Source of the DNA: a virus
Strand: one strand, 5' to 3'
Length of the DNA: 64,000 bases
Virus record (IMG/VR): IMGVR_UViG_3300006871_000008
Location: 1-64,000 of that record
Shown: in pieces, positions 3,320 to 23,660 of the stretch
Position numbering within the stretch: position 1 is the first letter of the stretch
How the letters are laid out: every line of letters begins with the position of its first letter
Translations under genes and position numbers: made by a program
The notes under the pieces: model-generated
The model's database searches: none
What the model was told of the DNA's origin: nothing
What the model saw: the letters and a program-made list of their open reading frames with translations, nothing else

Positions 3320-4228
3320 TTAGTCGGCGTATTCGCCAACATACTCACGCCACGCATCTTGCCACCGCTCGTCGTAATCCGGCACGTCGTTCCAGGGGTC
3401 ACGGTCCTTCAAGCCCATAAGAGCGGCATACTCGCTGTCCGGGTCACTGGCCTCAAAGGGGTCAGAAGTCGCGGAATCGTGGTACTTGCCGCTGCCGGTA
3501 CTTGTGCCACTGTTCTTAAAGCCGATGTACCGGCCACGACCACCGCCCTGCGTGCGACTGTCCCATTCCATCCAGGCTCCCCGACACTCAAGAGCCTTCA
3601 AGTTGGCGGTGTCGATACCACCCGCCGCATTGATCGAAAGCCGCATTGTCTCGCCTTCGGTAAAGGCGTGATACTCGATATTGCCGAGCGCGGCCTTCAA
3701 ATGCTTGTAGTCGGACGAGAAGTAATAAACGTCGCCGACCTTGCAAATGGCAAGGCAGTTATTGTGGGCTTGCAGATACAGCCCGGCCCCGTCAGTCCAG
3801 ACAAGACCCCAATAACCGGAAACATCGCCAAGAGCCTTTTGATAATCACCCTCGGCTTGGTGGATAGCGTCGATCAAATACATAGAATCGACAGCGTAGG
3901 TAGTCGGCGCGCCGACGATACCATTGTGCGCCCCGACGATGTTACCGTAGCGGAACGGGTGGGCGTTCTCCCGCACGTTATGGCCCCGCGTGCCGTGGCG
4001 AGTGTGCCCGGCGACGAACCATAGGCCGTTGCCCTCAGCCCCGGCAAGGTATTTGTTCAGCTTGTTACCCGTCAAGGCGTCGATGGGCGATTGCGCCCGC
4101 TTCCAGATTTTGCCGTCGCTGCCGAAGAATCCGATTGCTTCGTTTCCGCGCTCCGCATTGGCGAGAGCGAGTGTACGAAGCGCACCGAAGTCAGCACCCT
4201 TACCGATTGAGCCGAAGATTCCACACAT
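3320..4228 (-). CDS. Class II glutamine amidotransferase (Ntn hydrolase)
   Basis: The protein begins MCGIFGSIGKG, so after methionine removal Cys2 is the N-terminal nucleophile of the class II glutaminase family, which releases ammonia from glutamine. Other family signatures follow: ERGNEAIGFF (residues 27-35), GHTRHGTRG (74-82) and AHNGIV (100-105). At 302 aa it is a stand-alone glutaminase domain without a synthase partner, except that the next gene upstream encodes an amidoligase. It has its own promoter (4309-4336), a leader of about 75 nt with an AAAGGAATAAACAGC ribosome binding site, and a terminator behind it. Ammonia supply to an amide-forming reaction is inferred. Confidence 0.9.
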   Translation of the reverse strand: MCGIFGSIGKGADFGALRTLALANAERGNEAIGFFGSDGKIWKRAQSPIDALTGNKLNKYLAGAEGNGLWFVAGHTRHGTRGHNVRENAHPFRYGNIVGAHNGIVGAPTTYAVDSMYLIDAIHQAEGDYQKALGDVSGYWGLVWTDGAGLYLQAHNNCLAICKVGDVYYFSSDYKHLKAALGNIEYHAFTEGETMRLSINAAGGIDTANLKALECRGAWMEWDSRTQGGGRGRYIGFKNSGTSTGSGKYHDSATSDPFEASDPDSEYAALMGLKDRDPWNDVPDYDERWQDAWREYVGEYAD

Positions 4229-4308
4229 GCTGTTTATTCCTTTGGATTGAGACTTGTTTTGGCAGACGGCTTACGGTCAACCCTTCGCCGTTGGCTGCCA
4301 CTAACTAC

Positions 4309-4336
4309 ATTATACACCGGCCCCGCCCGTTGTCAA
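4309..4336 (-). promoter_or_regulatory. Sigma70-type promoter for the amidotransferase
   Basis: TTGACA (4336-4331), 16-bp spacer, TATAAT (4314-4309). Unlike many neighbours it gives a leader of about 75 nt. It overlaps the final codons of the amidoligase gene. Confidence 0.8.
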
Positions 4337-5799
4337 CTTGCCAGCACAAGATTTTGCTCCGCAATCATCCGGTCGAACGAAGTTTCCGATTCTATCGGTT
4401 GCTTCATCTTTGCGGCCCGCTTCATGTAGTACGACCGGAGTGTGCCGTCATCGCTGATAATATCCATAATGGCGGCAAACTTCTGCACCACGGACTTACC
4501 GGCAAACAAGTCATAAACCTCACGCTCCGGCAGCTTCGCCAGAGCATCGACAAACCGCGTATGGATTTTAACCCAATTGGCGACTTTATCGTAGTTGGTG
4601 GTTCCGCTGTGTAAACGGATTTCAACGGTATGGTGGCGCTGGTATGCCTGCCAGTTGAGCCAGTGGTAACGGTCGTCCGTTCTTTCCAGAATGTAGTTGA
4701 AGCCCTGCCCGCGAATGTCGTCAACCGAATAGGGCAGACGGTCGCAGTAGGAATTTCCGGCACGTTTCTTACTAACGAACCTTGCCCAAACATCCTCAGT
4801 CGCCGTATAACCGACAGCGACGGAAGCAAGCTGAGCATTGTTAAGGTCGCCACAATCGACGTGAACGTGGTAGCCGCAAGAGCTATCGACGGTCCAATCG
4901 TGTTCTCTGCCAAAGGCACACAAGTTGGAAACGGCCTCAAGACCCTCATCACCCTGCAAGACGGGTGACACGAATTCCTTGCCGCTAGACAAGGAACCAT
5001 CGTACTTAACGCCAAAGGGCGTTTTACCCCGTAGCCCGCCGTGATGCCTGCAACCGGAAATTTCCAACTCGACACCGAATTTGCGTTTGCTGCCGACGTT
5101 ATCGAATGTAGTGCCATCGACACGCCGACCTTGCTCCCACTCCGCTTCGTCGTCATCTTCGTCACAGGGCGAGCAGTTGGCACAGTACGCATCGCCGTCG
5201 TACTCGTCGGTGTAGGCAACATCGTCAAAGATGATAGCCTGCCCGCAACCGCAGCAAGTGGTAAACCTGCCGCTAAAGCACTCAGAGCAATAAAGCGCGG
5301 CATCGCCAGCAATCGGAGAAGCCTGCAACGCTGTAGTTTCGGTTTCAGCGCCACAAGCGGAGCAATGCGAATACAGCGACATATAGCAAGCCTCACAATG
5401 CGGTAGGTAAGAATCTTCGGCGTAGAACTCGCTGCCGACAGCGGTTTCCCGCTCGCAGGCGGCACAAGCCACAAATCGCTCCCCGTAGCAATCGCGGCAA
5501 AATTCGTGGTTATCGGCACTAGCCCGGCGTTCCGTCACGTCGGTATGCTCGCCGCATCCGGTACAAACGATGTAGTCGATACCCTCGCGTGGTGCTTCGG
5601 TGGGCAAGCGGCCTACTGGTGGCAGCCCGGCAGTCGGCAGCCCGCAGCCCGGCAGGACGTGCTGGCGCTCTACCATCGGCATTAGGACCGTGGCGGCGTG
5701 CCAATCGCTAGTCCATTGTGCGGGTGACGGTGCTGGCCGCTCGCGGCGTGCATTGCGGCGACTTCGGCGTAGCTCTTGTGTGCGGCGTGAACGTGGCAT
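4333..5799 (-). CDS. Amidoligase (COOH-NH2 ligase) with zinc-binding N-terminus
   Basis: 488 aa. Residues 78-212 hold about four tandem Cys pairs (CTGC, CRDC, CAAC, CEAC, CSAC, CSEC, CGC, CANC), a treble-clef or LIM-like zinc array. Residues 241-470 match the amidoligase family related to glutamine synthetase: FGVELEISG (241-249), KYDGSLSSGKEFVSPVL (265-281), CGYHVHVDCG (308-317) and VEIRLHSGTTNYDKVANWVK near 385-405. These enzymes join a carboxylate to an amine using ATP. The N-terminus is very basic. The amidotransferase gene follows, as in other amidoligase operons described by comparative genomics. The ATG is leaderless. Substrate unknown. Confidence 0.85.
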   Translation of the reverse strand: MPRSRRTQELRRSRRNARRERPAPSPAQWTSDWHAATVLMPMVERQHVLPGCGLPTAGLPPVGRLPTEAPREGIDYIVCTGCGEHTDVTERRASADNHEFCRDCYGERFVACAACERETAVGSEFYAEDSYLPHCEACYMSLYSHCSACGAETETTALQASPIAGDAALYCSECFSGRFTTCCGCGQAIIFDDVAYTDEYDGDAYCANCSPCDEDDDEAEWEQGRRVDGTTFDNVGSKRKFGVELEISGCRHHGGLRGKTPFGVKYDGSLSSGKEFVSPVLQGDEGLEAVSNLCAFGREHDWTVDSSCGYHVHVDCGDLNNAQLASVAVGYTATEDVWARFVSKKRAGNSYCDRLPYSVDDIRGQGFNYILERTDDRYHWLNWQAYQRHHTVEIRLHSGTTNYDKVANWVKIHTRFVDALAKLPEREVYDLFAGKSVVQKFAAIMDIISDDGTLRSYYMKRAAKMKQPIESETSFDRMIAEQNLVLAS

Positions 5800-5805
5800 A
5801 ACTAC

Positions 5806-5833
5806 ACTATAACCTATCGCGTCGTGTTGTCAA
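5806..5833 (-). promoter_or_regulatory. Promoter placed for a leaderless transcript
   Basis: TTGACA (5833-5828), 16-bp spacer, TATAGT (5811-5806), then 6 nt to the amidoligase ATG. The -35 box begins 2 nt after the 3' end of tRNA-Gly. Confidence 0.8.
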
Positions 5834-5834
5834 G

Positions 5835-5906
5835 AGGCACTTGTTGGAATCGGACCAACTTAGCCCGGTTGGAAACCGGGAACATCGCCAGCAATGTTTA
5901 AGTGCC
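5835..5906 (-). tRNA. tRNA-Gly(UCC)
   Basis: A 72-nt cloverleaf on the minus strand: acceptor GGCACTT/AAGTGCC, D stem ACAT/ATGT, anticodon stem CCCGG/CCGGG around loop TTTCCAA (anticodon TCC), T stem GTTGG/CCAAC around TCCGATT, discriminator U73 as usual for tRNA-Gly. CCA is not encoded. Position 8 is A rather than the usual U, and the T loop starts TC instead of TT, so the folding is slightly atypical. Confidence 0.85.
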
Positions 5907-5911
5907 AAAAG

Positions 5912-6010
5912 TTGCAGGGCGGGGAGTCGAACCCCGATAGCGGCGCGCTCGCGCTGTCCTTGTCCGGTGTTTACGACCTTGCGGTTCGCACCCTATTAGA
6001 CGACCCTGCC
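5912..6010 (-). tRNA. Degenerate or atypical tRNA-like element
   Basis: On the minus strand a strong T arm (CGGGG-TTCGACT-CCCCG) and an acceptor-like helix (GCAGGG with CCCTGC) enclose 99 nt, long enough for a type II tRNA with a GCGC/GCGC variable-arm hairpin. No good 5-bp anticodon stem is visible; the best candidate loop is CGTAAAC (anticodon TAA, Leu) with only three pairs and G instead of U at position 33. Pair 1-72 is G-A. It may be a decayed tRNA-Leu, or an RNA that only borrows the tRNA ends. Confidence 0.35.
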
Positions 6011-6019
6011 ATGTTTGCC

Positions 6020-6205
6020 TTAGTTGCGGAAGTACCGGGACAGGGCGAATAGCGCGATGCCGACCGCCGACAAGTCACGGAACGCAAAACCCTGCAAGTA
6101 GGGCGAAACGGCAAGATAGTTGCTCGCCAGCCAAACCATGCCAGGGACGATAACCGACGCTGCCAGCAAAATGCCGACAATGTGCGCGAAAGTGGCCTTC
6201 GCCAT
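6020..6205 (-). CDS. Small membrane protein, 61 aa
   Basis: MAKATFAHIVGILLAASVIVPGMVWLASNYLAV... has one clear hydrophobic segment (residues 7-29) and a second weaker one (about 40-55), so one or two membrane passes. Its promoter at 6251-6278 gives a leader of about 40 nt with a CGGAG ribosome binding site. The gene ends 9 nt before the tRNA-like element, so the tRNAs may be processed from this transcript. Function unknown. Confidence 0.7.
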   Translation of the reverse strand: MAKATFAHIVGILLAASVIVPGMVWLASNYLAVSPYLQGFAFRDLSAVGIALFALSRYFRN

Positions 6206-6250
6206 AAACGTACTCCGATGTTGAGAAGTGGAAAGTTTCGACTACACTCC

Positions 6251-6278
6251 ATTATACCGCGCTTTGGTCCGTTGTCAA
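6251..6278 (-). promoter_or_regulatory. Promoter embedded in the 3' end of the upstream gene
   Basis: TTGACA (6278-6273), 16-bp spacer, TATAAT (6256-6251). The -35 reads as Leu-Thr of the upstream gene and the TAA inside TATAAT is that gene's stop codon. Confidence 0.8.
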
Positions 6279-6458
6279 ATAATACCGCACAACGGCCAGC
6301 TTCCAAGCGTCAATTGCGTTCTCGCTGCCGTCGTCGTGCCGCACGATAACATCGTCCCGCTCGCGGTCCAGCCCGATTACGGTCACGCCGCAAGGCGCAC
6401 CGTCTGCACGGTTGTACCGCTGGCCTACTTGAATGTTGTGGCGGTCGATGTTGCTCAT
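6252..6458 (-). CDS. Unknown 68-aa protein, leaderless
   Basis: MSNIDRHNIQVGQRYNRADGAPCGVTVIG... looks like a small beta-barrel domain (VGQRY...VTVIGLDRERDDVIVRHDDG). A similar opening pattern, basic KVGQRLAYPVRKGSR, is seen in the 72-aa protein at 18289-18507. The ATG is 6 nt from a TATGAT -10 box. The last codons encode the promoter of the next gene. Function unknown. Confidence 0.7.
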   Translation of the reverse strand: MSNIDRHNIQVGQRYNRADGAPCGVTVIGLDRERDDVIVRHDDGSENAIDAWKLAVVRYYLTTDQSAV

Positions 6459-6464
6459 ACGCCA

Positions 6465-6492
6465 ATCATATCATGCCCGGCCCGGTTGTCAA
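6465..6492 (-). promoter_or_regulatory. Promoter placed for a leaderless transcript
   Basis: TTGACA (6492-6487), 16-bp spacer, TATGAT (6470-6465), then 6 nt to ATG 6458. Confidence 0.8.
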
Positions 6493-6525
6493 ATCGGCCC
6501 GCAAAGATTTCCGTTGACCTTGTAA

Positions 6526-6657
6526 CTAGGGCGCACGCGAAAGCCAATAATGCCAACTGTCGTGGTCATGCCGTTCGCTGGCGTGGGCCTCCGTCTTGAC
6601 CACGATAGTCAATAATCTTAATATAGTCGATACAATTAGGATAGTCGCTACAATCAT
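6526..6657 (-). CDS. Possible 43-aa membrane peptide
   Basis: MIVATILIVSTILRLLTIVVKTEA... would be a one-pass membrane peptide. A GGAG motif precedes the ATG but only 2 nt away, too close for normal use. The frame also runs through the inverted repeat, so the apparent coding may be incidental. Confidence 0.25.
   Translation of the reverse strand: MIVATILIVSTILRLLTIVVKTEAHASERHDHDSWHYWLSRAP
6556..6609. repeat. 13-bp inverted repeat, copy 2
   Basis: ACTGTCGTGGTCA (6556-6568) pairs with TGACCACGATAGT (6597-6609) with one mismatch that would be a G-U pair in RNA. The loop is 28 nt. The arm sequence is the same as at 3155-3207, with one substitution. Confidence 0.75.
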
Positions 6658-6739
6658 AACTCCGCATTAGTAGCGAAATTTCCGGGCCTGAAAATTATTC
6701 AATTCGGGCCTTGCGAGGGCGGCGCACAATATGCGCATG

Positions 6740-6772
6740 AAAAAACCCGACCGCCTTACGAGCGATTCGGGC
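6740..6772 (-). terminator. Intrinsic terminator
   Basis: A CCCGA/TCGGG stem (6746-6750 with 6767-6771, extended inside by CGC/GCG) is followed on the minus strand by TTTTTT. It ends the unit 6830-7242. Confidence 0.8.
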
Positions 6773-6829
6773 TTTTGCTTCGCCACAGCGATTGCCGCAG
6801 CATTGATAAGCACTGGCTTACGACCGCAC

Positions 6830-7066
6830 TTATACGGGCAGCTTGCGGATAAGGAACTTCTCGCCGACTTGCGTAACGGTGTAAAGGTCCGAGTTATCCT
6901 CAAAGTACGCGATAGCGGTGTCCGGGTAAACTGGCAATCCTGCCAGCCCCGACGCCAGCCCCATCACGTCCGACAACTCCGCGACGTTCAACTCGGTCAT
7001 GGCAACCGCCAGGGCTTCGCGGACACGCTGGCCCACCGGGGAACGATGTTCAAGTAATGCGCTCAT
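6830..7066 (-). CDS. Unknown 78-aa protein
   Basis: MSALLEHRSPVGQRVREALAVAMTELNVAELSDVMGLASGL... starts after an AAAGGGA ribosome binding site and overlaps the stop of the upstream gene (ATGA). It appears helical at first and beta-like at the end (DLYTVTQVGEKFLIRKLPV). No family recognised. Confidence 0.7.
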   Translation of the reverse strand: MSALLEHRSPVGQRVREALAVAMTELNVAELSDVMGLASGLAGLPVYPDTAIAYFEDNSDLYTVTQVGEKFLIRKLPV

Positions 7067-7242
7067 GTTCTAAATCCCTTTCGTTTTCGTTTTGGCCGAT
7101 CTTTCTTGAATCGGGAATTAAGTCGCCTGCCAAGAGGCGACACTAAATCAAACCCGAAAAGCGTGGCAGGATTCCGTGCAGGCTTCCCGCCGTCAACTTC
7201 GTACATCACAAATTCGCCCAACTTGGGCCGTTTTCCAGGCAT
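7063..7242 (-). CDS. Small basic protein, 59 aa
   Basis: The start is ATG 7242 behind GGGAGAAACAAAACA, a version of a leader motif also used at 21287 and 39569. The product MPGKRPKLGEFVMYEVDGGK... has a short beta-type N-terminus and a strongly basic C-terminus (RFKKDRPKRKRKGFRT), suggesting nucleic-acid binding. Function unknown. Confidence 0.65.
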   Translation of the reverse strand: MPGKRPKLGEFVMYEVDGGKPARNPATLFGFDLVSPLGRRLNSRFKKDRPKRKRKGFRT

Positions 7243-7290
7243 TGTTTTGTTTCTCCCAGGCCCGCCCACAAGGTCGAGCCATCTATAGGT

Positions 7291-7319
7291 ATTGTATCAT
7301 AAGGCGGGCCTCTTGTCAA
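7291..7319 (-). promoter_or_regulatory. Sigma70-type promoter
   Basis: TTGACA (7319-7314), 17-bp spacer, TACAAT (7296-7291). Leader of about 40 nt to ATG 7242. Confidence 0.75.
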
Positions 7320-7342
7320 GTTTCTCAGTAGAAAAACTTGGA

Positions 7343-7388
7343 GCGCTAAGCGCCGGCAAGCGCTAAGCGCCGGCAAGCGCTAAGCGCC
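7343..7388. repeat. Tandem 17-bp repeat, about 2.7 copies
   Basis: The unit GCGCTAAGCGCCGGCAA occurs twice in full and a third time partially. Each unit contains the palindrome GCGCT-A-AGCGC. The array lies between the promoter at 7291-7319 and the preceding gene, and its right end forms the last codons of the gene at 7380-7820. Confidence 0.85.
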
Positions 7389-7820
7389 GTCAGCCGGTGG
7401 CGTCGGAATTTCTATTACATTCGGTGCAATCGGCACGCCCGGCTTGAGCAAGCGCCGCTTCTCTTTAGGCAACTTCTCCCGGTTCAACTTCTCCGGGTCG
7501 TCGCTGTTGGTCGTCCATGATTCGTGGTAAGTGCCGCAGCGCACGGTGCGGTAGGCTTCGTGGCCCTCGAATACGTCGTGCCAGTCCAGCCTGTAGCCGC
7601 CGTTCTGCCAGTCTCGTTTCGGAAGCGCTCGGATATGTCGCTGTGTCCGATAGTCCAAGACGCGGAATCCTTCTGGCGTGTCAATCCAGAATATAAGCTG
7701 GTCACACTGATAGCTGCAATCGTCGTCAGCGTACAGGTGATTCAACTCGATAATGTCAACGGTGTCGCGGCGTGTGCCGCTCGGCTGCGGCACTATTGAA
7801 AGTAGTAGCAGCGCGATCAT
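7380..7820 (-). CDS. Unknown 146-aa protein with hydrophobic N-terminus
   Basis: MIALLLLSIVPQPSGTRRD... opens with a short hydrophobic run that could be an anchor or weak signal peptide. It is followed by an acidic, aromatic domain (YADDDCSYQCDQLIFWIDTP, YRLDWHDVFEGHEAYR) and a charged tail rich in Lys and Pro. The ATGA overlap with the upstream gene fixes the start. The stop codon lies in the tandem repeat. Function unknown. Confidence 0.65.
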   Translation of the reverse strand: MIALLLLSIVPQPSGTRRDTVDIIELNHLYADDDCSYQCDQLIFWIDTPEGFRVLDYRTQRHIRALPKRDWQNGGYRLDWHDVFEGHEAYRTVRCGTYHESWTTNSDDPEKLNREKLPKEKRRLLKPGVPIAPNVIEIPTPPADGA

Positions 7821-8032
7821 GCCATTAAATCCTTGAGAAACTCGAAAGCGCGGAACTTGATAGTGTTTGTGGCCTCAAGCACCACTTGGACCGACACAAC
7901 TTTGGCAGCCGGTACGTTCTCTTTGGGCACGTTGCGCGTGCTAATACCAGTCTGCCCCAACGTGCAGGACAAGTAGCCGGTGTCGGTGTGATACTCGAAA
8001 TTGTACGGGCCTATAGACCAAAACTTATCCAT
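7817..8032 (-). CDS. Unknown 71-aa protein
   Basis: Begins MDKFWSIGPYNFEYHTDTGYLSC after a GGGGCGAAGA purine-rich stretch and overlaps the upstream stop codon. Alternating hydrophobic residues suggest a small beta sandwich. No motif recognised. Confidence 0.65.
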   Translation of the reverse strand: MDKFWSIGPYNFEYHTDTGYLSCTLGQTGISTRNVPKENVPAAKVVSVQVVLEATNTIKFRAFEFLKDLMA

Positions 8033-8318
8033 TCTTCGCCCCATTGAACATAATCCAAGTGAAACCGCTGCCTACGTCGTCATCGGTCGTGCCGATAACC
8101 ATGTAGCGCCCATCGGGGAAGTCGATGATGCGGCCAAACGATGCCTCACCATGCGAAGCGCGGCAATACGGGGCCAGCAACTCCACGATTTTAGCGCCCA
8201 CTTCAACCGGGATGGGAGTATCGAATTGTGTCCATTCCCGCTGCGTATTCTCTACACACTCGCGGGCCATATGACTGTCGCGGGTCGATACGCCGTGGAT
8301 GCAAGTTTCAGGTGGCAC
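8025..8318 (-). CDS. Unknown protein, 97 aa
   Basis: A GTG at 8318 overlapping the upstream stop gives MPPETCIHGVSTRDSHMARECVEN..., which has a CxHG...C pattern (residues 6, 8 and 21) that might bind a metal. An internal ATG (residue 17) is an alternative start. The C-terminal part (YMVIGTTDDDVGSGFTWIMF) is beta-rich. Function unknown. Confidence 0.55.
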   Translation of the reverse strand: MPPETCIHGVSTRDSHMARECVENTQREWTQFDTPIPVEVGAKIVELLAPYCRASHGEASFGRIIDFPDGRYMVIGTTDDDVGSGFTWIMFNGAKNG

Positions 8319-8853
8319 GGCCTGTTTCCTTCTCGTAGAGTTTCAGAACGCGGGTCAACTCGCTACGCTTGTGCGGCGTGCCGCCAAAATTCATTTGCAG
8401 ATACCACGCCAGCACTTCGCGGCGGGTGCGAAGCTGATTGACGTTAAACAGCAAGTCAAGATTTGCCATACGTGGCTTGTCCGTGTACTCGCGGTAATAG
8501 CTGCCAAACACCTTTAGCTCGTTCGCGATGAACAGGCGAAACGACTCGATGCGCTGCTTGCCGTCAACTAGAACAAAGTCGCCAGTGTAGTCTCGCTGCC
8601 AACCGGGATGGTTGAAGTAAATGATGCGGCCAGTCTTGCCGCCGCTGAACCAGTATTCGAGCCATGCGACTCTCTGCCGCTTTGTCCAGACGTGCGGGCG
8701 TTGGAAGTCCGGGTCAAGATTCAGCTTGCCTTCGCTGTCCTTCTGATGCCGCTCAATCCACGGCATGATGTAGTCAAAGGGTATGTTGACTTGATAATCG
8801 CCATCGCGGATGCGCTGCGGAATGTCGGTGAACTTCGTGATTTTCTTGCTCAT
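8308..8853 (-). CDS. DUF262-like protein (ParB/GmrS N-domain fold)
   Basis: 181 aa from ATG 8853. The central stretch has the DUF262 signature: LDPDFQRPHVWTKRQRVAWL, a variable loop, then a hydrophobic strand and FVLVDGKQRIESFRLFI. Family members are ParB-related and occur in GmrSD-type restriction systems, where this domain hydrolyses NTP. Here it stands alone without the HNH (DUF1524) half, so its role is unclear; a DNA-acting or anti-restriction role is possible. It overlaps both neighbours by a few nt. Confidence 0.8.
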   Translation of the reverse strand: MSKKITKFTDIPQRIRDGDYQVNIPFDYIMPWIERHQKDSEGKLNLDPDFQRPHVWTKRQRVAWLEYWFSGGKTGRIIYFNHPGWQRDYTGDFVLVDGKQRIESFRLFIANELKVFGSYYREYTDKPRMANLDLLFNVNQLRTRREVLAWYLQMNFGGTPHKRSELTRVLKLYEKETGRAT

Positions 8854-9176
8854 TTCGCAGGCTCCCGCACAAAGTTTGGTAGCCCGCACGCCTCAACGAT
8901 CAGGCGGCGCATCCAACTGGCCCGCCGCCCTCGGCGTCGATAGTTGCCCGCAGCCGTGTAGAAGTCATTGACGTTGGTTGGACTCTCGCGCTCGAACCGC
9001 TCAGCCGCATATTGTCGCGTTTCTTTCGGGTGACGCAGTTGGGCGACAAGGTAGTAAATCGGCTGATCTGTCCCGTATCGCTCGCCGATAATCGCTCCGC
9101 CGTCATTGTACCGAAATGGCACGCCCTCATTGCGAAGCTGTTTGACGTGCCGCAGTATGTCTTTGAATCGTACCAT
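8850..9176 (-). CDS. Unknown 108-aa basic protein, leaderless
   Basis: MVRFKDILRHVKQLRNEGVPFRYNDGGAIIGERYG... has a helical basic N-terminus, then a YNDGG turn and an Arg-rich segment (YRRRGRRASWMRRLI). The ATG is 6 nt from the -10 box and no ribosome binding site is present. It leads the unit that includes the DUF262 gene. Confidence 0.7.
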   Translation of the reverse strand: MVRFKDILRHVKQLRNEGVPFRYNDGGAIIGERYGTDQPIYYLVAQLRHPKETRQYAAERFERESPTNVNDFYTAAGNYRRRGRRASWMRRLIVEACGLPNFVREPAK

Positions 9177-9182
9177 AAAACA

Positions 9183-9210
9183 ATCCTATCACGCCGTTTA
9201 GGTTTGTCAA
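9183..9210 (-). promoter_or_regulatory. Promoter placed for a leaderless transcript
   Basis: TTGACA (9210-9205), 16-bp spacer, TAGGAT (9188-9183), then 6 nt to ATG 9176. Confidence 0.8.
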
Positions 9211-9620
9211 GCGCCTGTCCCGGTAATCAACAACTTGAGTTGCTGACGCACGACTTTCTCACTTGGCGAGGGTATGCAGCCGCCGATGGTTACAAGGAAT
9301 TCAACGGCTTCGTGGGATAGTTGGCCCAAGATTCCGGCGAGCGTCCGGTCGATGGAGTTTCTGTCACCAGCGGTAAGGTTCGCATCGTGGATACACTTAC
9401 CCTTGTTGACATAACCGAATCGACCGGCCCCAACTTCCATCTTCAACTTGGCATCGGCCACGTTCTCGGCTTCGGTCGCCCAAAATGTTTCGACCTTGCC
9501 AACGATACCACCCAGGCCGGGGTTGTCGCAGCAAATGAATTTGTCGTGACCGATGCGCTCGACCCAAAACGCATCTTTGGACGACTTGCCCGGCCACGCA
9601 ACTAACATGAATCTACGCAT
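9207..9620 (-). CDS. Unknown 137-aa protein
   Basis: MRRFMLVAWPGKSSKDAFWVERIGHDKFICCDNPG... starts in an overlap with the upstream stop codon (ATGCGTAG). It has a glycine-rich stretch (NPGLGGIVGKVETFWATEAE) and no recognised catalytic motif. Its final codons overlap the next promoter. Confidence 0.65.
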   Translation of the reverse strand: MRRFMLVAWPGKSSKDAFWVERIGHDKFICCDNPGLGGIVGKVETFWATEAENVADAKLKMEVGAGRFGYVNKGKCIHDANLTAGDRNSIDRTLAGILGQLSHEAVEFLVTIGGCIPSPSEKVVRQQLKLLITGTGA

Positions 9621-9924
9621 AGTGCTTAATCCTCACGTTCGCTGAAACCAGATAAAACATGACCGCCAGTTGGTCGTAGAACTTCGCCGTCATATCGGCG
9701 ATACGCTCTATCTCTGGCTCGGTCGCCACAATCCGAACGGGTATCATTCGCTCGGCGAATAGCTGCCCGTCTGGCGCGACCCATTGACCTTTGACGGGTG
9801 GCAAGACCGTCAAGCCGCCAGTAATCCGGCGTACTTGGCTGTCCCATTCCCGGTGGCAGCGTGTCCGAATCGGTCGCCCGTTGTTTCTCACGCATGGTAC
9901 AAGTATCTCCCAAACAGCTTTCAT
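9613..9924 (-). CDS. Unknown 103-aa protein
   Basis: MKAVWEILVPCVRNNGRPIRTRCHREWDSQVRRI... is basic in the first half and hydrophobic-helical at the end (MTAKFYDQLAVMFYLVSANV). It overlaps both neighbours by a few bases. No family recognised. Confidence 0.65.
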   Translation of the reverse strand: MKAVWEILVPCVRNNGRPIRTRCHREWDSQVRRITGGLTVLPPVKGQWVAPDGQLFAERMIPVRIVATEPEIERIADMTAKFYDQLAVMFYLVSANVRIKHYA

Positions 9925-10214
9925 AGGGGCAGCACCGCCGTCAGTCTTGAATCGTGGAAGGCGATAACGCCGCTATGTCCGAAGTCGTAGATAAAATCGT
10001 GCTTGCGGGCAATGGCGTGCATTAAGCCAAGCGCGTTGTTTAGGTCGGAGCGTCGGTTAATACCGAAGGCTGGCACAAGGTCCGACGTGATGTAGCCAAG
10101 CCGCCCGGTATTCGGGTCATGCAGGTAAAGCACGCCGTCCGCGACTTGCAGAATCAGCCCGAATCGGCTGCATGTCCGCACGAACGCTACGATCAGTTTG
10201 CCTAGATCAGTCAT
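9921..10214 (-). CDS. Unknown 97-aa protein
   Basis: Two consecutive ATGs (10217, 10214) overlap the upstream stop. The second is chosen because GGAG lies 7 nt before it. The product MTDLGKLIVAFVRTCSRFGLILQVADGVLYLHDP... looks like a compact alpha/beta domain. Function unknown. Confidence 0.65.
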   Translation of the reverse strand: MTDLGKLIVAFVRTCSRFGLILQVADGVLYLHDPNTGRLGYITSDLVPAFGINRRSDLNNALGLMHAIARKHDFIYDFGHSGVIAFHDSRLTAVLPL

Positions 10215-10551
10215 CATTTGGCTCCAATCCCAATTCCCGGCTGACGAGTTTCCGAATCCACTTTTGACGGGGCGAGTGTTGCCGTCGCCCTGGCCGTTTG
10301 CAGGCCCGCGTGAAGTCCCGAAAGTTGTTGGGGTCGAGTGGGAAGCAGGACATGCCACGCATCCGTGACGACCGCAGGCCCGGCCTATTGTGGACGACCC
10401 GCATGATCGCTACAATCGGTTCAATCCCTCGACGGGCACGGGCGCTCAATCGCCCGCTGATAGTGCCACCGTCAAGCGACCACTGATAGCGGTCTTTGAC
10501 TTCCCGCAACGCGCGGAGAAGGTGAGCGACGGTGAGTATTGGCATTTGCAT
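10207..10551 (-). CDS. Unknown basic 114-aa protein, leaderless
   Basis: MQMPILTVAHLLRALREVKDRYQWSLDGGTISGRLSARARRG... is highly basic, with LDPNNFRDFTRACKRPGRR near its end; a nucleic-acid-binding role is possible. The ATG sits 6 nt from TAGGAT without a ribosome binding site. Confidence 0.65.
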   Translation of the reverse strand: MQMPILTVAHLLRALREVKDRYQWSLDGGTISGRLSARARRGIEPIVAIMRVVHNRPGLRSSRMRGMSCFPLDPNNFRDFTRACKRPGRRQHSPRQKWIRKLVSRELGLEPNDD

Positions 10552-10557
10552 ACAACA

Positions 10558-10585
10558 ATCCTATCATGCCTACGCACCTTGTCAA
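10558..10585 (-). promoter_or_regulatory. Promoter placed for a leaderless transcript
   Basis: TTGACA (10585-10580), 16-bp spacer, TAGGAT (10563-10558), then 6 nt to ATG 10551. Confidence 0.8.
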
Positions 10586-10586
10586 G

Positions 10587-11105
10587 CTAAACCGGCAAGC
10601 CTTGGACGAACTTGGACTGAATTTCCTCCCGGTCGGGCGGCAAAGCCGTTAAGTCCACTGGCAGGTTCAACCGCTCCGGCGACGGAATCCAAAGTGTCTG
10701 GCCGTTTCGATGCTCATGCCGCGAGCTAAGGCCGTACAACTCCCCGACGCACAGAGCGTCTAAGGCCCGGCGTCCCCGGCGTGTGAGCGTTTGCAGCATC
10801 GCTAGTCGGTGATAATGCGGCAGCCAGACCAGCAATTCCAATCCGTCCAGTACCGGCTTGCCGTTCAGCTTAAACTCGACAAGCCGATTCCACACTTCCA
10901 ACTCCCCGCAGCGGGCGGTCACGTACTGATTGTAGTACGGGTCGAAGTACGACATTACGTTGCGAGTCAGCAAGTGCAGAATCTTGAAGCGGTTGAGCGG
11001 CGTCTTTTCACCAACATACGTCACCATGAACCACTGGCCCGCCGTGGCGAAACGCTGGCGCACAGGAGCGCTGTTCGGTTGTGCAAGCCGGATTATGGGC
11101 AGCAT
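10587..11105 (-). CDS. Unknown 172-aa protein
   Basis: Starts at ATG 11105 overlapping the upstream stop (a longer in-frame reading is a shadow). MLPIIRLAQPNSAPVRQRFATAGQWFMVTYVGEKTPLNRFK... has aromatic-rich segments (SYFDPYYNQYVTARCGELEVW) and an arginine cluster (TRRGRRALDAL). No named family recognised. Confidence 0.65.
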   Translation of the reverse strand: MLPIIRLAQPNSAPVRQRFATAGQWFMVTYVGEKTPLNRFKILHLLTRNVMSYFDPYYNQYVTARCGELEVWNRLVEFKLNGKPVLDGLELLVWLPHYHRLAMLQTLTRRGRRALDALCVGELYGLSSRHEHRNGQTLWIPSPERLNLPVDLTALPPDREEIQSKFVQGLPV

Positions 11106-11491
11106 GGTATTGGCTCCAAGTAGGCGGTCGGAATCGGCAGCCCGCACGCCGCCATCGTCCGCTGTTGTTGCGTTTGTGGCGCTGGCCGCGTTTTCGGGTT
11201 GAGCCAGTAATTCGGCGGCGGCACTTTGTCCAGCCAGAGCAGCGCACCGTGAACACCAATCGCCACGATACGATTCTCGGACTCGATACGCAGTTGCACG
11301 GTCGGGTCTTTGACGTATTCGACAATGACTTCGTGGACTCGCTTGCGGGAGTGAACCACGCACGCCGTCGTTTCCTCGAAGTATTGGATATTGCCCACGC
11401 CCGACTTGAGCGTGCGAACCACGACCCGGAATACGGGCGGGATGATCGGTGGCAATTCGTAGTTGCTCATTTGCGTTGCTGTTGGGGTCAT
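11093..11491 (-). CDS. Unknown 132-aa protein of the VPPPNYW pair
   Basis: Starts at ATG 11491 two bases after the upstream stop codon. It shares a C-terminal domain with the protein at 13072-13827: here RIESENRIVAIGVHGALLWL followed by DKVPPPNYW, there FRVENDCGKIVGIQAHGEILWL followed by ANVPPPNYW. The first part also matches loosely (PVFRVVVRTLKSG / NSYRLVVREMIYN). This is an intragenomic duplication. The tail is rich in Pro and Gln. Function unknown. Confidence 0.7.
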   Translation of the reverse strand: MTPTATQMSNYELPPIIPPVFRVVVRTLKSGVGNIQYFEETTACVVHSRKRVHEVIVEYVKDPTVQLRIESENRIVAIGVHGALLWLDKVPPPNYWLNPKTRPAPQTQQQRTMAACGLPIPTAYLEPIPCCP

Positions 11492-11492
11492 A

Positions 11493-11921
11493 TTAGCCAC
11501 CACCGTCGCCGTACTCGATTGTCTGCACGACGTTGCCTTCGCCATCCAACTGAAATCCGAGGTTGCTGAGGGGGCCGTGCATGAAACCAGCCGTGAGTCG
11601 TCGCTGGTGGCCGAATACGTCACAGAGGGATGCGAAAAACCTAAGATCGTCGCCCCACGCCGTTCGCGTCGAAGTCTCTTGCGGGTTGTCGTATTGGTAT
11701 TTGAGGCAATAGGCTTCAAGGTGGACTCGGACAGGGTTGAGGCCGTTGATGCAGAAGTCAAGTCGGCACTGAGTTTTGAATTGTCGTTCATGGATTAAGA
11801 TACTTTCAAGAATCTCCCGCAGTCCCAATTCGTTTGACGGCTTCGGCTGGATGCACAGCACAAGCTGCCAGTGCCGCATATCTTCGGCACTGAGTTTCGT
11901 GTCAAGGAAGTGATTGCTCAT
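11493..11921 (-). CDS. Unknown 142-aa protein, leaderless
   Basis: MSNHFLDTKLSAEDMRHWQLVLCIQPKPSNELGLREILESI... is an apparent alpha/beta protein ending in a glycine-rich acidic tail (IEYGDGGG). The ATG is 6 nt from TAAGAT. No recognised family. Confidence 0.7.
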   Translation of the reverse strand: MSNHFLDTKLSAEDMRHWQLVLCIQPKPSNELGLREILESILIHERQFKTQCRLDFCINGLNPVRVHLEAYCLKYQYDNPQETSTRTAWGDDLRFFASLCDVFGHQRRLTAGFMHGPLSNLGFQLDGEGNVVQTIEYGDGGG

Positions 11922-11927
11922 ACACTA

Positions 11928-11955
11928 ATCTTACCACGCCGTTACAGCTTGTCAA
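11928..11955 (-). promoter_or_regulatory. Promoter placed for a leaderless transcript
   Basis: TTGACA (11955-11950), 16-bp spacer, TAAGAT (11933-11928), then 6 nt to ATG 11921. It overlaps the last codons of the upstream gene. Confidence 0.8.
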
Positions 11956-12493
11956 CCCACCAGCAAACTTTTCCACAACTGTTGTGCGGCAAAGACTTTA
12001 CGATGCGGGCACGGTACTGATACGTCTTGACGTAGGGCGGTTCGTCACTCGTCAACCAGTCGGTATCGCCCTCCCGCTGCCGACGTTGTTGGACAAGCGC
12101 GTTGCGTACCTTAACCGCTCCGGCCCACCACGGCAAATACAAATCGGGATACCAGCCGCTATAACTCACCGATTCAGCAGGACGGACGCGAGTGGTAATA
12201 TCCCTGCACTCAATCATCCACCAGAACGGCTCTGTTGGCTTATCGTTCCATCGGCGAGAGTCGATGGCGTTTTGGATTCGCGTGCGTCGTGGCCCTAGCT
12301 CGCAGTCTTGCGTGCGAGTCGAACCAGTCCACTCGACACCGCAGTACGGGCAGAACTTCCAAACGGCGGTGAACGCCCCATCATGGGTGTAGCCCGGCCA
12401 GCTACGCCCCTCCCATTGCTTGTAGCAATTCAAGCACTGGTAGAGCGCACAGCCGTCGTCAGTGTAATGGACGTATCGCCACTTTGGAATCAT
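11942..12493 (-). CDS. Zinc-ribbon protein, 183 aa
   Basis: A CLNC (residues 20-23) and CPYC (48-51) pair near the N-terminus forms a rubredoxin-like zinc ribbon (ALYQCLNCYKQWEG...WKFCPYCGVEWTG). The rest is tryptophan-rich (EPFWWMIECRD, LPWWAGAVKVR) with no catalytic signature. It overlaps the upstream gene by an ATGA junction. Function unknown; zinc ribbons of this kind usually bind nucleic acid or protein. Confidence 0.7.
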   Translation of the reverse strand: MIPKWRYVHYTDDGCALYQCLNCYKQWEGRSWPGYTHDGAFTAVWKFCPYCGVEWTGSTRTQDCELGPRRTRIQNAIDSRRWNDKPTEPFWWMIECRDITTRVRPAESVSYSGWYPDLYLPWWAGAVKVRNALVQQRRQREGDTDWLTSDEPPYVKTYQYRARIVKSLPHNSCGKVCWWVDKL

Positions 12494-12714
12494 TCTTTCA
12501 CTTCCACCACGTCAAAGGAAGGTACTCGCGCTCCATTGTCTAACCAGAGCGTGTAATACGGGTCTGCCTCTGCGAATCCTTGATGGTATTCCGCAGAAGC
12601 GACTCGCGCTGTCACCAGCTTCGGAGTTATGTCTAACACAAAATCGCCATTTGCCCTACGAACCGCAACTGTATCCGGCTTGCCAGCATAGGCTACTAAA
12701 GTTCCACGTTTCAT
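12490..12714 (-). CDS. Unknown 74-aa protein
   Basis: MKRGTLVAYAGKPDTVAVRRANGDFVLDITPKLVTAR... starts in an ATGA overlap and looks like a small beta-barrel. It lies directly behind the cyclotransferase-like gene. No motif recognised. Confidence 0.65.
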   Translation of the reverse strand: MKRGTLVAYAGKPDTVAVRRANGDFVLDITPKLVTARVASAEYHQGFAEADPYYTLWLDNGARVPSFDVVEVKE

Positions 12715-13079
12715 CGACGCCACACTCCGCTCTTGATTTCAACGCCGCTTAGTCGCCCGACGTGATTGGCGATGTAGGCCCACACGTCAATCGTGTCGCC
12801 CTTCTGGTCATGCACTATTACCCGCTCGCGGGTGTAAAGGCCACGATTCACACCCTCGATAACGTCGAGATAGTTCAGAATGTCGTCGTCAACGCGATAC
12901 ACTTCGCCCGTCACTTCGATACCCTTCTCTGACCGCACAAGGGCCGGGAACGCACCCAGGTCAACCAGCTTGAACGCCGCAGGCGTCTTGTAGTTGCCGA
13001 CGTAGGTGCAGCCCTGGATAACGTAATGAAGCGCGAAGTCGGCTTTAAGCGTGCCGTATGCAAACAGTAGTTCAGTCAT
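12711..13079 (-). CDS. Gamma-glutamylcyclotransferase-like (GGCT/AIG2 fold)
   Basis: 122 aa from ATG 13079 (overlap with the upstream stop). It begins MTELLFAYGTLKADFALH, the YGTL signature of the GGCT/AIG2 fold, and continues with GNYKTPAAFKLVDLGAFPAL and VTGEVYRVDDDILNYLDVIEG, which match the family order; the Glu of GEVYRV lies where the family keeps a conserved acidic residue. Such enzymes release 5-oxoproline from gamma-glutamyl amines or peptides. The amidoligase and amidotransferase 7 kb away make a shared gamma-glutamyl pathway attractive, but this is inference. Confidence 0.85.
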   Translation of the reverse strand: MTELLFAYGTLKADFALHYVIQGCTYVGNYKTPAAFKLVDLGAFPALVRSEKGIEVTGEVYRVDDDILNYLDVIEGVNRGLYTRERVIVHDQKGDTIDVWAYIANHVGRLSGVEIKSGVWRR

Positions 13080-13827
13080 TGTTGGCCCATCCTCCCGCCA
13101 TGCAGATTTCGGGTTCTGGCTGCTCCGGTGCTGGCGGCTTCGGCGGCGCAGGCTTGCCCCAATAGTTCGGCGGCGGGACGTTCGCCAGCCATAAAATTTC
13201 GCCGTGGGCCTGGATTCCCACAATCTTGCCGCAATCGTTTTCAACCCGGAATTGAGACTCGTCTGTGTACGCAGCCTTAATGTCCTTGAAGCACTTGATG
13301 CAAGTCCCAAGTGTTCCAGCTTCCAACACCATATCGACCGGCTTCATTCCAGCGCCGGTATCGTTGTAAATCATTTCACGGACGACCAGCCGGTAGGAAT
13401 TGGGCGGCGGGGCAACGTAATTGCCCGCACCCTTGCACCAGCCGCACTGTTCCGTCACTATGTAGCCCATCGAACTTGACACGTACTCCATCTTACCCTT
13501 GTTGCCCTTACATTTCGGGCAAACGTCAAAGGTCTGGTAATACGCCTGCAAGTAATGCGGCTCCCCGGCTTCCTTCATACGCTCCCGCCAGTGCCGCACA
13601 ACTCCAATCGACCAGTTGATATGGCCGCTGATTAGTTGGTACGTACCGATTGGAGCGTATATGCCATCTTCACCGAGTTTGCTGATCGTGCGAGCATCCT
13701 TTAGATAGGTCGTGCCGCGAAGCTGGCTGTACGCCGCTTTGATTGCGTTGGTGATACTGTCGTAGCTCCCGGTCGATACGCAGAGCGAATCGGTGACGAG
13801 ATACGGTAGTCTGTTGTTATTTTCCAT
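13072..13827 (-). CDS. DnaJ-type zinc-finger protein, 251 aa
   Basis: Two CxxCxGxG-like motifs (CPKCKGNKG and CGWCKGAG, around residues 102-140) form a half DnaJ zinc finger. The C-terminal domain is shared with 11093-11491 and ends VPPPNYW followed by a Pro-rich tail (KPAPPKPPAPEQPEP). The ATG is 6 nt from TATAAT and lacks a ribosome binding site; the -35 is the weak TTGCGG. No J domain is present, so this is not a co-chaperone in the usual sense. Confidence 0.7.
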   Translation of the reverse strand: MENNNRLPYLVTDSLCVSTGSYDSITNAIKAAYSQLRGTTYLKDARTISKLGEDGIYAPIGTYQLISGHINWSIGVVRHWRERMKEAGEPHYLQAYYQTFDVCPKCKGNKGKMEYVSSSMGYIVTEQCGWCKGAGNYVAPPPNSYRLVVREMIYNDTGAGMKPVDMVLEAGTLGTCIKCFKDIKAAYTDESQFRVENDCGKIVGIQAHGEILWLANVPPPNYWGKPAPPKPPAPEQPEPEICMAGGWANND

Positions 13828-14238: not shown

Positions 14239-14555
14239 TTCATCCTCACTTTGCTGCCTTGCGGGTATCGCATGGCTCGCTGTTTCAGGAACTTGTTATC
14301 TTGGGTGGCCCCACGCCCGCCTGCTTCGCGGGCATAAAGCCAGAAAACGTCATCGGTAGGCGTCATGGCGTACAGCTTTTCGGTACACCATACGTCGCCC
14401 CGGAACATGCGGACGGTGGCGTAAATTCCAGCTTCGTTGATTTCCAACTCAAAGCTGTCATTGCCAATCGTCTTGCGGAAGCGGGCCGTATCGCCTTTAC
14501 GCTCATACACTACCGTCTTGCCGCCTCCCTGTATTTTTTGTATGTAGGTCATCAT
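14178..14555 (-). CDS. Unknown 125-aa protein
   Basis: Two ATGs (14555, 14552) overlap the upstream stop codon. MMTYIQKIQGGGKTVVYERKGDTARFRKTIGNDSFELEIN... is beta-rich for about 90 residues, then basic and Ser-rich where it overlaps the next gene. Function unknown. Confidence 0.6.
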   Translation of the reverse strand: MMTYIQKIQGGGKTVVYERKGDTARFRKTIGNDSFELEINEAGIYATVRMFRGDVWCTEKLYAMTPTDDVFWLYAREAGGRGATQDNKFLKQRAMRYPQGSKVRMKCTLSRESRKSSPSQSTASS

Positions 14556-15163
14556 TCGATACTCGCATCGCGTGCAGCTTGGCACGATTCGCAGTCGCAG
14601 TAGTCGTCGTTCCAATCGTCGTTGCCGTCGTCATTCGGCTCGTCCGAATCTTCGTCGGACTCCAAGCGAACGCCTTGCTCATATTGCGCCTTGGCTTCCT
14701 CGACGGGCCAGTAAAATACCTTCTCGTCGTCCGGGTCACGCTCAAAGCCAAACTTGGCGTAGTGGTCCGGGTCTTGCCGGGCCAGAATCGCACGGTGCGA
14801 ATTGTGCATGGCGTCCAGCTTGAGGAAGTCCGGCGTCGTGCGGCGGGACATTTGACCGCCACGCCGACGAAACCAATCTTCCCGGTTGTCCAGCCTGTCT
14901 CGGATGGGGTCTTGCTTGCCGGTTCGGGCCTCATACTCGTCGCACAACGCCCGCCCATACTCAACCAACGATAGCGGGCAATACTGCCAAACTTTCTTCG
15001 GCGGCGAGTTATACATGAAGTGGTCGCCGCGAGTCGGATGATTGCGTCCGCTGAGCATGTAAAGAACTTCCATCACGTCATGCCGCTGTTTGGTCAGCCG
15101 CTTGAGGGTGAAGCACTTAGCGCACTCGGCGTAGTTATCGAAGGGCAGGTAGATTCGGCTCAT
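14552..15163 (-). CDS. Pyrimidine-dimer-glycosylase-like protein, copy 1, with acidic tail
   Basis: 203 aa. The layout matches the neighbouring gene and the MSMEG_6728 / Pyr_excise family: opening IYLPFDNYAECAKCFTLKRL, then NHPTRGDHFMY, EYGRALCDEYE and a NSHRAILARQDPDHYAKFGF segment. A DSDEPNDDGNDDWNDD acidic stretch and a CDCESC motif extend the C-terminus beyond the family length. Family members related to T4 endonuclease V cut DNA at UV-induced pyrimidine dimers; activity here is inferred. Leaderless. Confidence 0.6.
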   Translation of the reverse strand: MSRIYLPFDNYAECAKCFTLKRLTKQRHDVMEVLYMLSGRNHPTRGDHFMYNSPPKKVWQYCPLSLVEYGRALCDEYEARTGKQDPIRDRLDNREDWFRRRGGQMSRRTTPDFLKLDAMHNSHRAILARQDPDHYAKFGFERDPDDEKVFYWPVEEAKAQYEQGVRLESDEDSDEPNDDGNDDWNDDYCDCESCQAARDASIE

Positions 15164-15169
15164 AAAAGA

Positions 15170-15197
15170 ATCCTATCACAGATTACGCCGTTGTCAA
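15170..15197 (-). promoter_or_regulatory. Promoter placed for a leaderless transcript
   Basis: TTGACA (15197-15192), 16-bp spacer, TAGGAT (15175-15170), then 6 nt to ATG 15163. It overlaps the end of the upstream glycosylase-like gene. Confidence 0.8.
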
Positions 15198-15812
15198 CCG
15201 GCCCGGCCAAACATAAGGGATTTCGTCTCGGTCGTTCACGTCCCAATCGAAGGCACGATAGTAGTTATGCGGGATGGCGTAGCCAAGCGAGCGTACCCGT
15301 TCCTCAAGTTCGACAATATCCTCAAGCTGAGCGTCCCGCATAGCGGGCAGACCATCCTCAAGCAGCCACCCCTCGACGCAAGCACGCCTGCCATTCGCCA
15401 GACGGATGCCCTCAGCCCGCAGCATTTCCTTGACGGCAATTGCTAGGGCGTCCTTCCGGCCCTTGAACAAAAGCCGCGAGCGGTGCGAGCGGTGGTATTC
15501 ATTGTCGCCTAACCACGGCGGCTCCGTGCTGGTTGGCATAATGTCGTGGCGCTCTAGCAACTGGTACGCCCGCGACTCCACGTTGTCAAGGCAGCCGCGA
15601 CACCGCCATTCGGTGCAGATTGCGGAGATATACATGGCAAGCTGGTATTCATGCCCTCGCCACTGCGCGATAACAGGGTGATTTGGCCCGGCGCGGACGC
15701 CGATCAGTATTTCAAGAATCTGATACCCCTCGCTACGCTGCTTCCCAAGGCGTTGCTTGTCCAGGGAGGCGGCAGTCATGCGGAAATCGGGCACTGGCAG
15801 GAAGGTTTGCAT
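15183..15812 (-). CDS. Pyrimidine-dimer-glycosylase-like protein (MSMEG_6728 family), copy 2
   Basis: 209 aa. MQTFLPVPDFRMTAASLDKQRLGKQRSE is the characteristic N-terminus of the MSMEG_6728 / pyrimidine dimer DNA glycosylase family, followed by NHPVIAQWRGHEYQLAMY and an EYHRSHRSRLLFKG motif. The family is expected to act in repair of UV-damaged DNA. It carries about 60 extra C-terminal residues. Its promoter has its -35 box inside a terminator hairpin, and the start is leaderless. Confidence 0.8.
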   Translation of the reverse strand: MQTFLPVPDFRMTAASLDKQRLGKQRSEGYQILEILIGVRAGPNHPVIAQWRGHEYQLAMYISAICTEWRCRGCLDNVESRAYQLLERHDIMPTSTEPPWLGDNEYHRSHRSRLLFKGRKDALAIAVKEMLRAEGIRLANGRRACVEGWLLEDGLPAMRDAQLEDIVELEERVRSLGYAIPHNYYRAFDWDVNDRDEIPYVWPGRLTTA

Positions 15813-20497: not shown

Positions 20498-20718
20498 GAC
20501 AATTCCTTTCCACGTAGGCGCTGAATACCGTGCCGGGTCTTGCGGAGCAAGAACAGCGGCAGGAACGCAAGCGCGATTGAGAGTTGAAAGAGAAGCCAAC
20601 ACGGAACGACAAACGCGGCACAGAGCCACGCGAGGAAGCCAAGCAGCAAAGGCCGCTCAACCACCATCCGTGAGGCTTCAAGATACGATTCGTTTATATA
20701 GCGACGGTAGAGTTTCAC
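20494..20718 (-). CDS. Membrane protein, 74 aa
   Basis: GTG start 20718 overlaps the NDP kinase stop (GTGA). A long hydrophobic stretch (LLLGFLAWLCAAFVVPCWLLFQLSIALAFLPLFLL in the middle, enough for one long or two short helices) is followed by a basic tail (RKTRHGIQRLRGKE). Its size and topology would suit a holin, but there is no endolysin next to it. Confidence 0.65.
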   Translation of the reverse strand: MKLYRRYINESYLEASRMVVERPLLLGFLAWLCAAFVVPCWLLFQLSIALAFLPLFLLRKTRHGIQRLRGKELS

Positions 20719-21092
20719 AGATTCGGCTCCCAAAGATTGACTTCGTAGCGGGCGGACTCCACACCATCGGACGTGTGAATGAGATTGCGAGGGCCGACGC
20801 CGCCGTACTTCGCCCGCAGCGACAATGCTCGCTCGCGGGCCAAATGGACAGCATCAACACCGCCGACAATCATGGCAAACACTTGGCCGCTGCTCATATG
20901 CGCGACCAGTCGCTCGTAGAAGTCCTTGCCCTTGTGTTCCTGATAATGGAAGCCCCAAATATCCCGGAACGGGGTGAACAGCCGGGCCTTGACGGGCGAG
21001 AAGCATAGCTCGCTGAGTAGCGGCAGCATCAGGCCACGCTCGATGGCGTCCGGCTTCAACAGGACAAAGGTTTTCTCGAACAGTGCGCTCAT
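20715..21092 (-). CDS. ndk: Nucleoside diphosphate kinase
   Basis: 125 aa, close to the usual NDPK length. KTFVLLKPDAIERGL (residues 7-21) is the N-terminal signature with Lys13. FYERLVAHMSSGQVFAMIVGG follows, and RNLIHTSDGVESARYEV contains the catalytic His106 of the conserved NxIHxSDxxExAxxE motif. The enzyme transfers phosphate from NTPs to NDPs and dNDPs. Phage copies are uncommon. With the dNMP kinase at 44487 it would complete dNTP supply from dNMPs. Confidence 0.9.
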   Translation of the reverse strand: MSALFEKTFVLLKPDAIERGLMLPLLSELCFSPVKARLFTPFRDIWGFHYQEHKGKDFYERLVAHMSSGQVFAMIVGGVDAVHLARERALSLRAKYGGVGPRNLIHTSDGVESARYEVNLWEPNL

Positions 21093-23422: not shown

Positions 23423-23660
23423 TCGTGTTCTCAATGCTCACTACGGGCGACGTTGACCGGGCCTTCCCGAACAACTTTCCATCCCAAAAGATATTGAGCC
23501 GCTCCCCAACAACCGGCCCATCAATTCGGATGAAGTTACGCCACTCGCCGTCAGCCGCATTCTTGGACACAGTTGAGGCGTCCCCGGTCACACGCCGGGC
23601 ACGTAAATGTACTAGGTCAACTTCGTAAATCGACCCGGTTTCGGTAGTCACTCGAAGCAT
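23394..23660 (-). CDS. Unknown 88-aa protein
   Basis: MLRVTTETGSIYEVDLVHLRARRVTGDAS... starts within the final codons of the NifU-like gene. It is a beta-rich small protein whose opening (MLRVTTETGSIYEVDL) is common among phage accessory proteins. Function unknown. Confidence 0.65.
   Translation of the reverse strand: MLRVTTETGSIYEVDLVHLRARRVTGDASTVSKNAADGEWRNFIRIDGPVVGERLNIFWDGKLFGKARSTSPVVSIENTNEPVAMVEN

Follow-up and report, generated by a model that had tools for sequence, protein, structure and literature searches.

The window analysed here covers the initial 64 kb of an IMG/VR virus record of 90,844 bases, derived from an uncultured, long-tailed phage that encodes tape-measure, portal, terminase and capsid genes. 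Three open reading frames, all on the minus strand and with the boundaries first proposed for them, encode an amidoligase, a class II glutamine amidotransferase (GATase) and a gamma-glutamyl(amine) cyclotransferase (GGCT). The identities assigned to these enzymes in the original prediction were borne out by PHROG and Pfam matches and by intact active sites (Table 1). Taken together, their likely activities are the cleavage of glutamine and the formation or removal of gamma-glutamyl-type amide bonds. What is less usual in the set is the fusion of a zinc-finger array to the ligase. No amidoligase was seen in ten terminase relatives, mostly fragments, and the module is therefore probably not core to this phage group. 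The closest phage relative found by terminase (IMGVR_UViG_3300045256_000045, L131; 78% identity) is a 12 kb fragment with many packaging-region genes in common with the window phage.

Table 1. Position of the enzyme genes and associated features in the 64 kb window
Feature	Position	Strand	Basis or location
Class II glutamine amidotransferase (Ntn hydrolase), 302 aa	3320..4228	-	PHROG match, profile, model
GATase sigma-70-type promoter-like site, TTGACA-16-TATAAT, 12/12	4309..4336	-	Overlaps amidoligase stop codon
Amidoligase_2 (PF12224) enzyme, 488 aa	4333..5799	-	Family match, motifs, model
Zinc array of the amidoligase	5173..5565	-	Sequence; model confidence about 74-91
Amidoligase sigma-70-type promoter-like site, TTGACA-16-TATAGT	5806..5833	-	Between tRNA-Gly gene and ATG
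tRNA-Gly(TCC) gene	5834..5906	-	Next to amidoligase promoter-like site
GGACT/AIG2 gamma-glutamyl(amine) cyclotransferase, 122 aa	12711..13079	-	PF06094

The amidoligase matches Amidoligase_2 over residues 273-416 (E 8.9e-20, 72 bits for a cut-off of 22) as well as phrog_2443 (E 3e-27). Its layout combines a four-unit CxxC zinc array (residues 79-209) and a core of the glutamine-synthetase/YbdK fold (residues ~238-465) containing the family-invariant residues G242xE244xE246, D267xS269, E275, H311xH313, R346, Y378, N382 and E393xR395. All the residues invariant among 58 relatives are retained, G309 and R377 included, and alignments of these 58 amidoligases and of 14 others show that the GxExE, HxH and ExR motifs are invariant or nearly so. 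The predicted ATP and metal residues, whose absence had been named as one of two findings that would refute the interpretation, are thus kept. The AlphaFold2 model has a confident core (block means mostly 85-98), and a Foldseek search of the PDB matched it to YbdK, glutamine synthetase and gamma-glutamylmethylamide synthetase with a probability of 1.00 and TM-scores of 0.26-0.40; as these TM-scores are low, the fold assignment is based on the Foldseek probability combined with the motifs. Bifunctional gamma-glutamylcysteine/glutathione synthetases were matched as well, and the best viral structure match is the amidoligase of the Arthrobacter phage Salgado. The start codon is uncertain, with no obvious Shine-Dalgarno sequence and low model confidence over residues 1-70. 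Single-protein scans with the window amidoligase or GATase detected no close relatives in viral_contigs; an alignment-based scan found relatives of the amidoligase encoded on at least 514 viral stretches.

The GATase matches the phage GlmS-type family phrog_4736 (E 4.9e-16); a single-sequence Pfam search gave no match. A profile built from 34 relatives matched the GlmS glutaminase domain at 2.4e-27 and EgtC at 0.0039. At the structural level, the model matches GlmS (1xff) at 7e-12, PurF, and EgtC (4zfk/4zfl) at about 2e-8, the EgtC match being nearly as good as that to PurF-type enzymes. The residues characteristic of the class II enzymes are in place, namely the nucleophile C2 following the initiator Met, the oxyanion pair N102-G103 and the glutamine-binding R77 and D114, within the segments H75xR77xxT80, N88xHP, H101-N102-G103 and D114. 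The positions corresponding to glutamine binding and to the oxyanion hole in GlmS are conserved across the 34 proteins, and the C-terminal ~75 residues are predicted to be disordered.

The third enzyme matches the GGACT family (E 1.3e-22, 81 bits for a cut-off of 22.8), with the motif Y8-G9-T10-L11 and a catalytic-type E75 within LDVIEG. GGACT enzymes act on gamma-glutamyl amines. The start of this gene overlaps the stop of the gene at 13072-13827 and its stop overlaps the start of the gene at 12490-12723. It is located ~7 kb upstream of the amidoligase and GATase genes in transcription order, in another transcription unit, and its membership of the set in this phage is accordingly deduced from other genomes. 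Its proposed role as a partner is supported by its family and by its recurrence with the other two enzymes elsewhere, not by proximity here. The product of the overlapping gene at 13072-13827, which also contains a DnaJ-like CxxCxGxG zinc motif, has a C-terminal HGxxLWLxxVPPPNYW segment in common with that of the gene at 11093-11791.

On the basis of these folds and residues, a glutamine-dependent mechanism of amide ligation is the reading favored here, with somewhat better than even confidence. Using its N-terminal cysteine, the class II GATase would free ammonia by hydrolysis of glutamine or of a different gamma-glutamyl amide; the amidoligase would phosphorylate a carboxylate with ATP and join the ammonia, or another amine, to produce an amide. 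The GGCT, judging from other phages, may remove gamma-glutamyl groups as 5-oxoproline, either to clear by-products or to edit the product. In GatCAB, MurT-GatD and AsnB/LtsA, a glutaminase partner similarly feeds ammonia to an ATP-dependent partner activating a carboxylate, and for MurT-GatD and LtsA the carboxylates are those of peptidoglycan. These systems differ from the window set in their glutaminase or ligase family.

The amidoligase and the GATase had been described as one module. They are indeed adjacent, but each gene is preceded by a near-perfect promoter-like site of its own (Table 1). The -10 regions of both sites (4303-4314 and 5800-5811) contain TATARTGTAGTT, which has just these two matches in the window for 0.14 expected. 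The record contains 20 sigma-70-type sites scoring at least 11/12, of which 18 fall within 0-45 kb; they are absent across the structural genes at 45-80 kb, and Markov shuffles of the first 16.6 kb gave none. The cassette genes belong to the non-structural genome half, which is rich in such sites, and this clustering suggests that they would be transcribed by the host RNA polymerase, early or in the middle of infection, before the structural genes. The amidoligase transcript would begin at the ATG or very near to it. The neighboring tRNA-Gly gene is probably not part of the cassette, as tRNAs were found near an amidoligase at only 2 other loci of the 60 scanned.

Several other genes of the window can be mentioned. 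The phage encodes a NifU-like Fe-S scaffold protein (23648-24103) and a nucleoside diphosphate kinase (20715-21092), together with a trypsin-like protease domain protein (PF13365; 21353-22426) in the non-structural block. Two neighboring genes (15183-15812 and 14552-15163) have pyrimidine dimer DNA glycosylase-like domains (PF03013). A short GmrSD_N/DUF262-type protein (8308-8889) has a weak likeness to the defence proteins NsnA and PD-T4-2_A. As for the cassette itself, a function as an anti-phage defence component was rejected, none of its three proteins (0/3) matching PADLOC.

The zinc array, which spans residues 79-209, consists of nine overlapping CxxC motifs forming four head-to-tail CxxC-x18-22-CxxC units (C79/82/101/104, C112/115/135/138, C146/149/171/174 and C182/185/206/209). 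Foldseek matches of the amidoligase model include two LIM proteins, LMO2 and LMO4. The canonical LIM ligand pattern (C-x2-C ... H-x2-C-x2-C ... C-x2-C/H/D) was not found, the ligands being all cysteines, and the array can be called LIM-like on structural grounds and marginally so by sequence. It was originally regarded as an additional odd part; such arrays recur in other phages and in Clostridia. Twelve of the array cysteines are common to the window protein, the gut phage MT839723 and the environmental phage MW202733. When genomes were scanned with the protein of the gut phage, 24 Clostridial loci were recovered; almost every one has six CxxC motifs and, immediately downstream, a GATase. Marine viral contigs combine a GATase with two amidoligases, one of which bears the array. 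The Oscillospiraceae/Clostridia loci (L026-L049), MT839723 and the marine contigs (L052-L081) resemble the window phage in having an N-terminal CxxC array on Amidoligase_2 with an adjoining GATase. These proteins are nevertheless far diverged from the window protein (about 16-30% overall identity). Unlike in the window phage, two amidoligases flank the GATase in the marine contigs, while in the Clostridial loci GGCT was not found within the DNA examined and a serine recombinase often adjoins the pair. This recombinase was assigned from its sequence to the serine site-specific recombinase family in 15/24 loci (e.g. L034:2083-2688), and its frequent proximity suggests that the Clostridial pair travels on mobile elements. 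In the marine clade (L052-L081, L118), an amidoligase of ~610 residues, the GATase and a zinc-array amidoligase of ~385 residues lie in a row, with GGCT elsewhere on most contigs.

When amidoligases with complete, uncut flanks were counted, taking at least four CxxC motifs as the definition of the zinc-array class, a GATase was adjacent (within 600 bases) to 41/41 zinc-array amidoligases versus 23/69 of those lacking the array. On a tree of the core domain the array requires three changes (a single origin is not rejected, p-AU 0.29) and its association with the GATase amounts to one to three independent contrasts, so that at most three lineages stand behind the 41/41 figure; the window amidoligase itself forms a long, unplaced branch. 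Zinc arrays of the LIM type commonly serve to dock proteins. This property, along with the LMO2/LMO4 structure match, is compatible with a modification of host or phage proteins, in which the ligase would amidate or peptide-tag protein carboxylates and the LIM-like array would recognise the protein. Protein tagging is, in addition, among the predictions made for amidoligases generally (Iyer et al. 2009, as cited in PMC6256558 and PMC4431377). This explanation is nonetheless improbable: the array is missing from most relatives within the amidoligase family, and the constant presence of an adjacent GATase where flanks are complete fits a docking of the GATase at least equally well. Within the amide-ligation mechanism preferred here, the array would probably dock the GATase or the substrate. 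A more specific proposal can be put forward tentatively, with a confidence well short of even: the zinc-array amidoligase and the GATase would be the two subunits of a single glutamine-dependent amidotransferase. The array would hold the glutaminase in place and assist the passage of ammonia to the GS-fold ligase, and the enzyme would serve phages and mobile elements of Clostridia to amidate carboxylates, either in the host envelope or on proteins.

The other finding named as refuting the interpretation, that the three genes never occur together elsewhere, does not hold either, since they recur in other phages. In the Arthrobacter phage Wheelbite, a member of the Laroyevirus group in which they are adjacent, gp92-94 are consecutively GGCT, amidoligase and GATase. 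In phage C75C1, a single gene (L011:9708-10604), 0.85 kb from the amidoligase, combines a class II GATase-like domain and a GGCT domain. All three families, plus further ligases, were found in LUZ24, HP1, MW202615, StenR_269 and Vibrio 275E43-1, and Bacillus and Geobacillus phages combine the amidoligase with GGCT. Among 50 amidoligase-bearing viral records, 25/50 have a GATase, 25/50 a GGCT and 18/50 both (Fisher p 0.004); given that this value becomes 0.13 once a single marine virus clade is removed, adjacency and fusion carry more weight than the test.

The C75C1 fusion, where two gamma-glutamyl-handling domains are united in one chain, also bears on a different explanation, a cycle in which a gamma-glutamyl unit serves as protecting group or carrier. 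The amidoligase would attach the gamma-carboxyl of glutamate to an amine, with no channelling of ammonia, and the group would later be removed by a GATase-fold amidohydrolase similar to EgtC or by the GGCT, in the manner of BtrG in butirosin biosynthesis. Such a cycle agrees with the matches of the amidoligase fold to YbdK and to the bifunctional gamma-glutamylcysteine/glutathione synthetases, with the nearly equal fit of the GATase model to EgtC and, slightly better, to PurF-type enzymes, and with the chemistry of the GGACT family on gamma-glutamyl amines. At the level of profiles, however, the GATase is far closer to GlmS than to EgtC, and neither GATase nor GGCT alone is obligatory, because many amidoligase phages possess a GATase alone or a GGCT alone. 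The cycle is considered unlikely, and ammonia-dependent amide ligation is retained as the preferred mechanism.

The combination as such is not new, being a phage cassette already in the literature (PMC5498523, PMC6256558, PMC11945000). In podoviruses of the RIO-1/HP1, LUZ24/PaP3 and phiEco32 types, this cassette includes an ATP-grasp enzyme and a PF14395-type ligase; these papers trace it to Hardies 2013 and Iyer 2009. The larger set goes by the name of peptidoglycan modification cassette (also module), with a possible role against superinfection, and its action on peptidoglycan is a published prediction (PMC5498523, PMC6256558, PMC11945000); no assay of any member of a phage cassette was found in the literature searched. 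The window phage resembles the RIO-1/LUZ24/phiEco32-type cassette by the presence of Amidoligase_2, class II GATase and GGCT on one genome, in its early/DNA-metabolism half. It differs from it by the 7 kb separating the GGCT from the other genes, by its zinc array and by its long-tailed morphology with a tape-measure gene. A hidden ATP-grasp or PF14395 partner was ruled out with positive controls: no ATP-grasp ligase was matched in the window phage record by a search that was positive in 7 podovirus-type records, and no PF14395-type COOH-NH2 ligase by a search that was positive in 5 reference records. As these two ligases were not found, the set is a reduced trio like that of Laroyevirus, not a full member of the podovirus cassette. 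The Arthrobacter cluster AL phages (Laroyevirus; PMC5513430) have the same three families, likewise lacking the ATP-grasp and PF14395 ligases; unlike in the window phage, their GGCT, amidoligase and GATase genes are consecutive and their amidoligase is devoid of the zinc array. In the open-access literature, no description associating an amidoligase, a LIM domain and a phage was found. The enzymes and the trio are therefore already known, and the new part is the zinc-array variant paired with a GATase, which was not found described.

What the set modifies can be approached from the same comparison. The most likely target would be the peptide part of the host peptidoglycan or of its precursor, for example by amidation of D-Glu or diaminopimelate, which would alter the envelope of the host while infection proceeds, perhaps as a protection from superinfection or from autolysins of the host. 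This target is proposed because it follows the published prediction and because wall precursors are available in the cytoplasm; as a specific assignment it is plausible and somewhat short of an even chance. DNA bases, one of the targets first envisaged, are the least likely. Their hypermodification by amide or gamma-glutamyl groups could be related to the nucleotide-metabolism genes of the phage, which comprise a dNMP kinase (44487-45077), the nucleoside diphosphate kinase cited above and a nucleoside deoxyribosyltransferase-like gene. Nothing in the genome, however, points to such a modification: neither a search with working controls nor Pfam scans detected a thymidylate synthase/hydroxymethylase-type gene, and for the nearest published cassettes the proposed target is the cell wall, which makes this explanation highly improbable.

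Phage amidoligase cassettes are widespread and have been predicted since 2009. The reduced trio, as well as the zinc-array ligase and GATase pair kept in phages and Clostridia, provides a small testable unit. Such units could reveal the product of these enzymes, and whether phages chemically remodel the wall of their host during infection.
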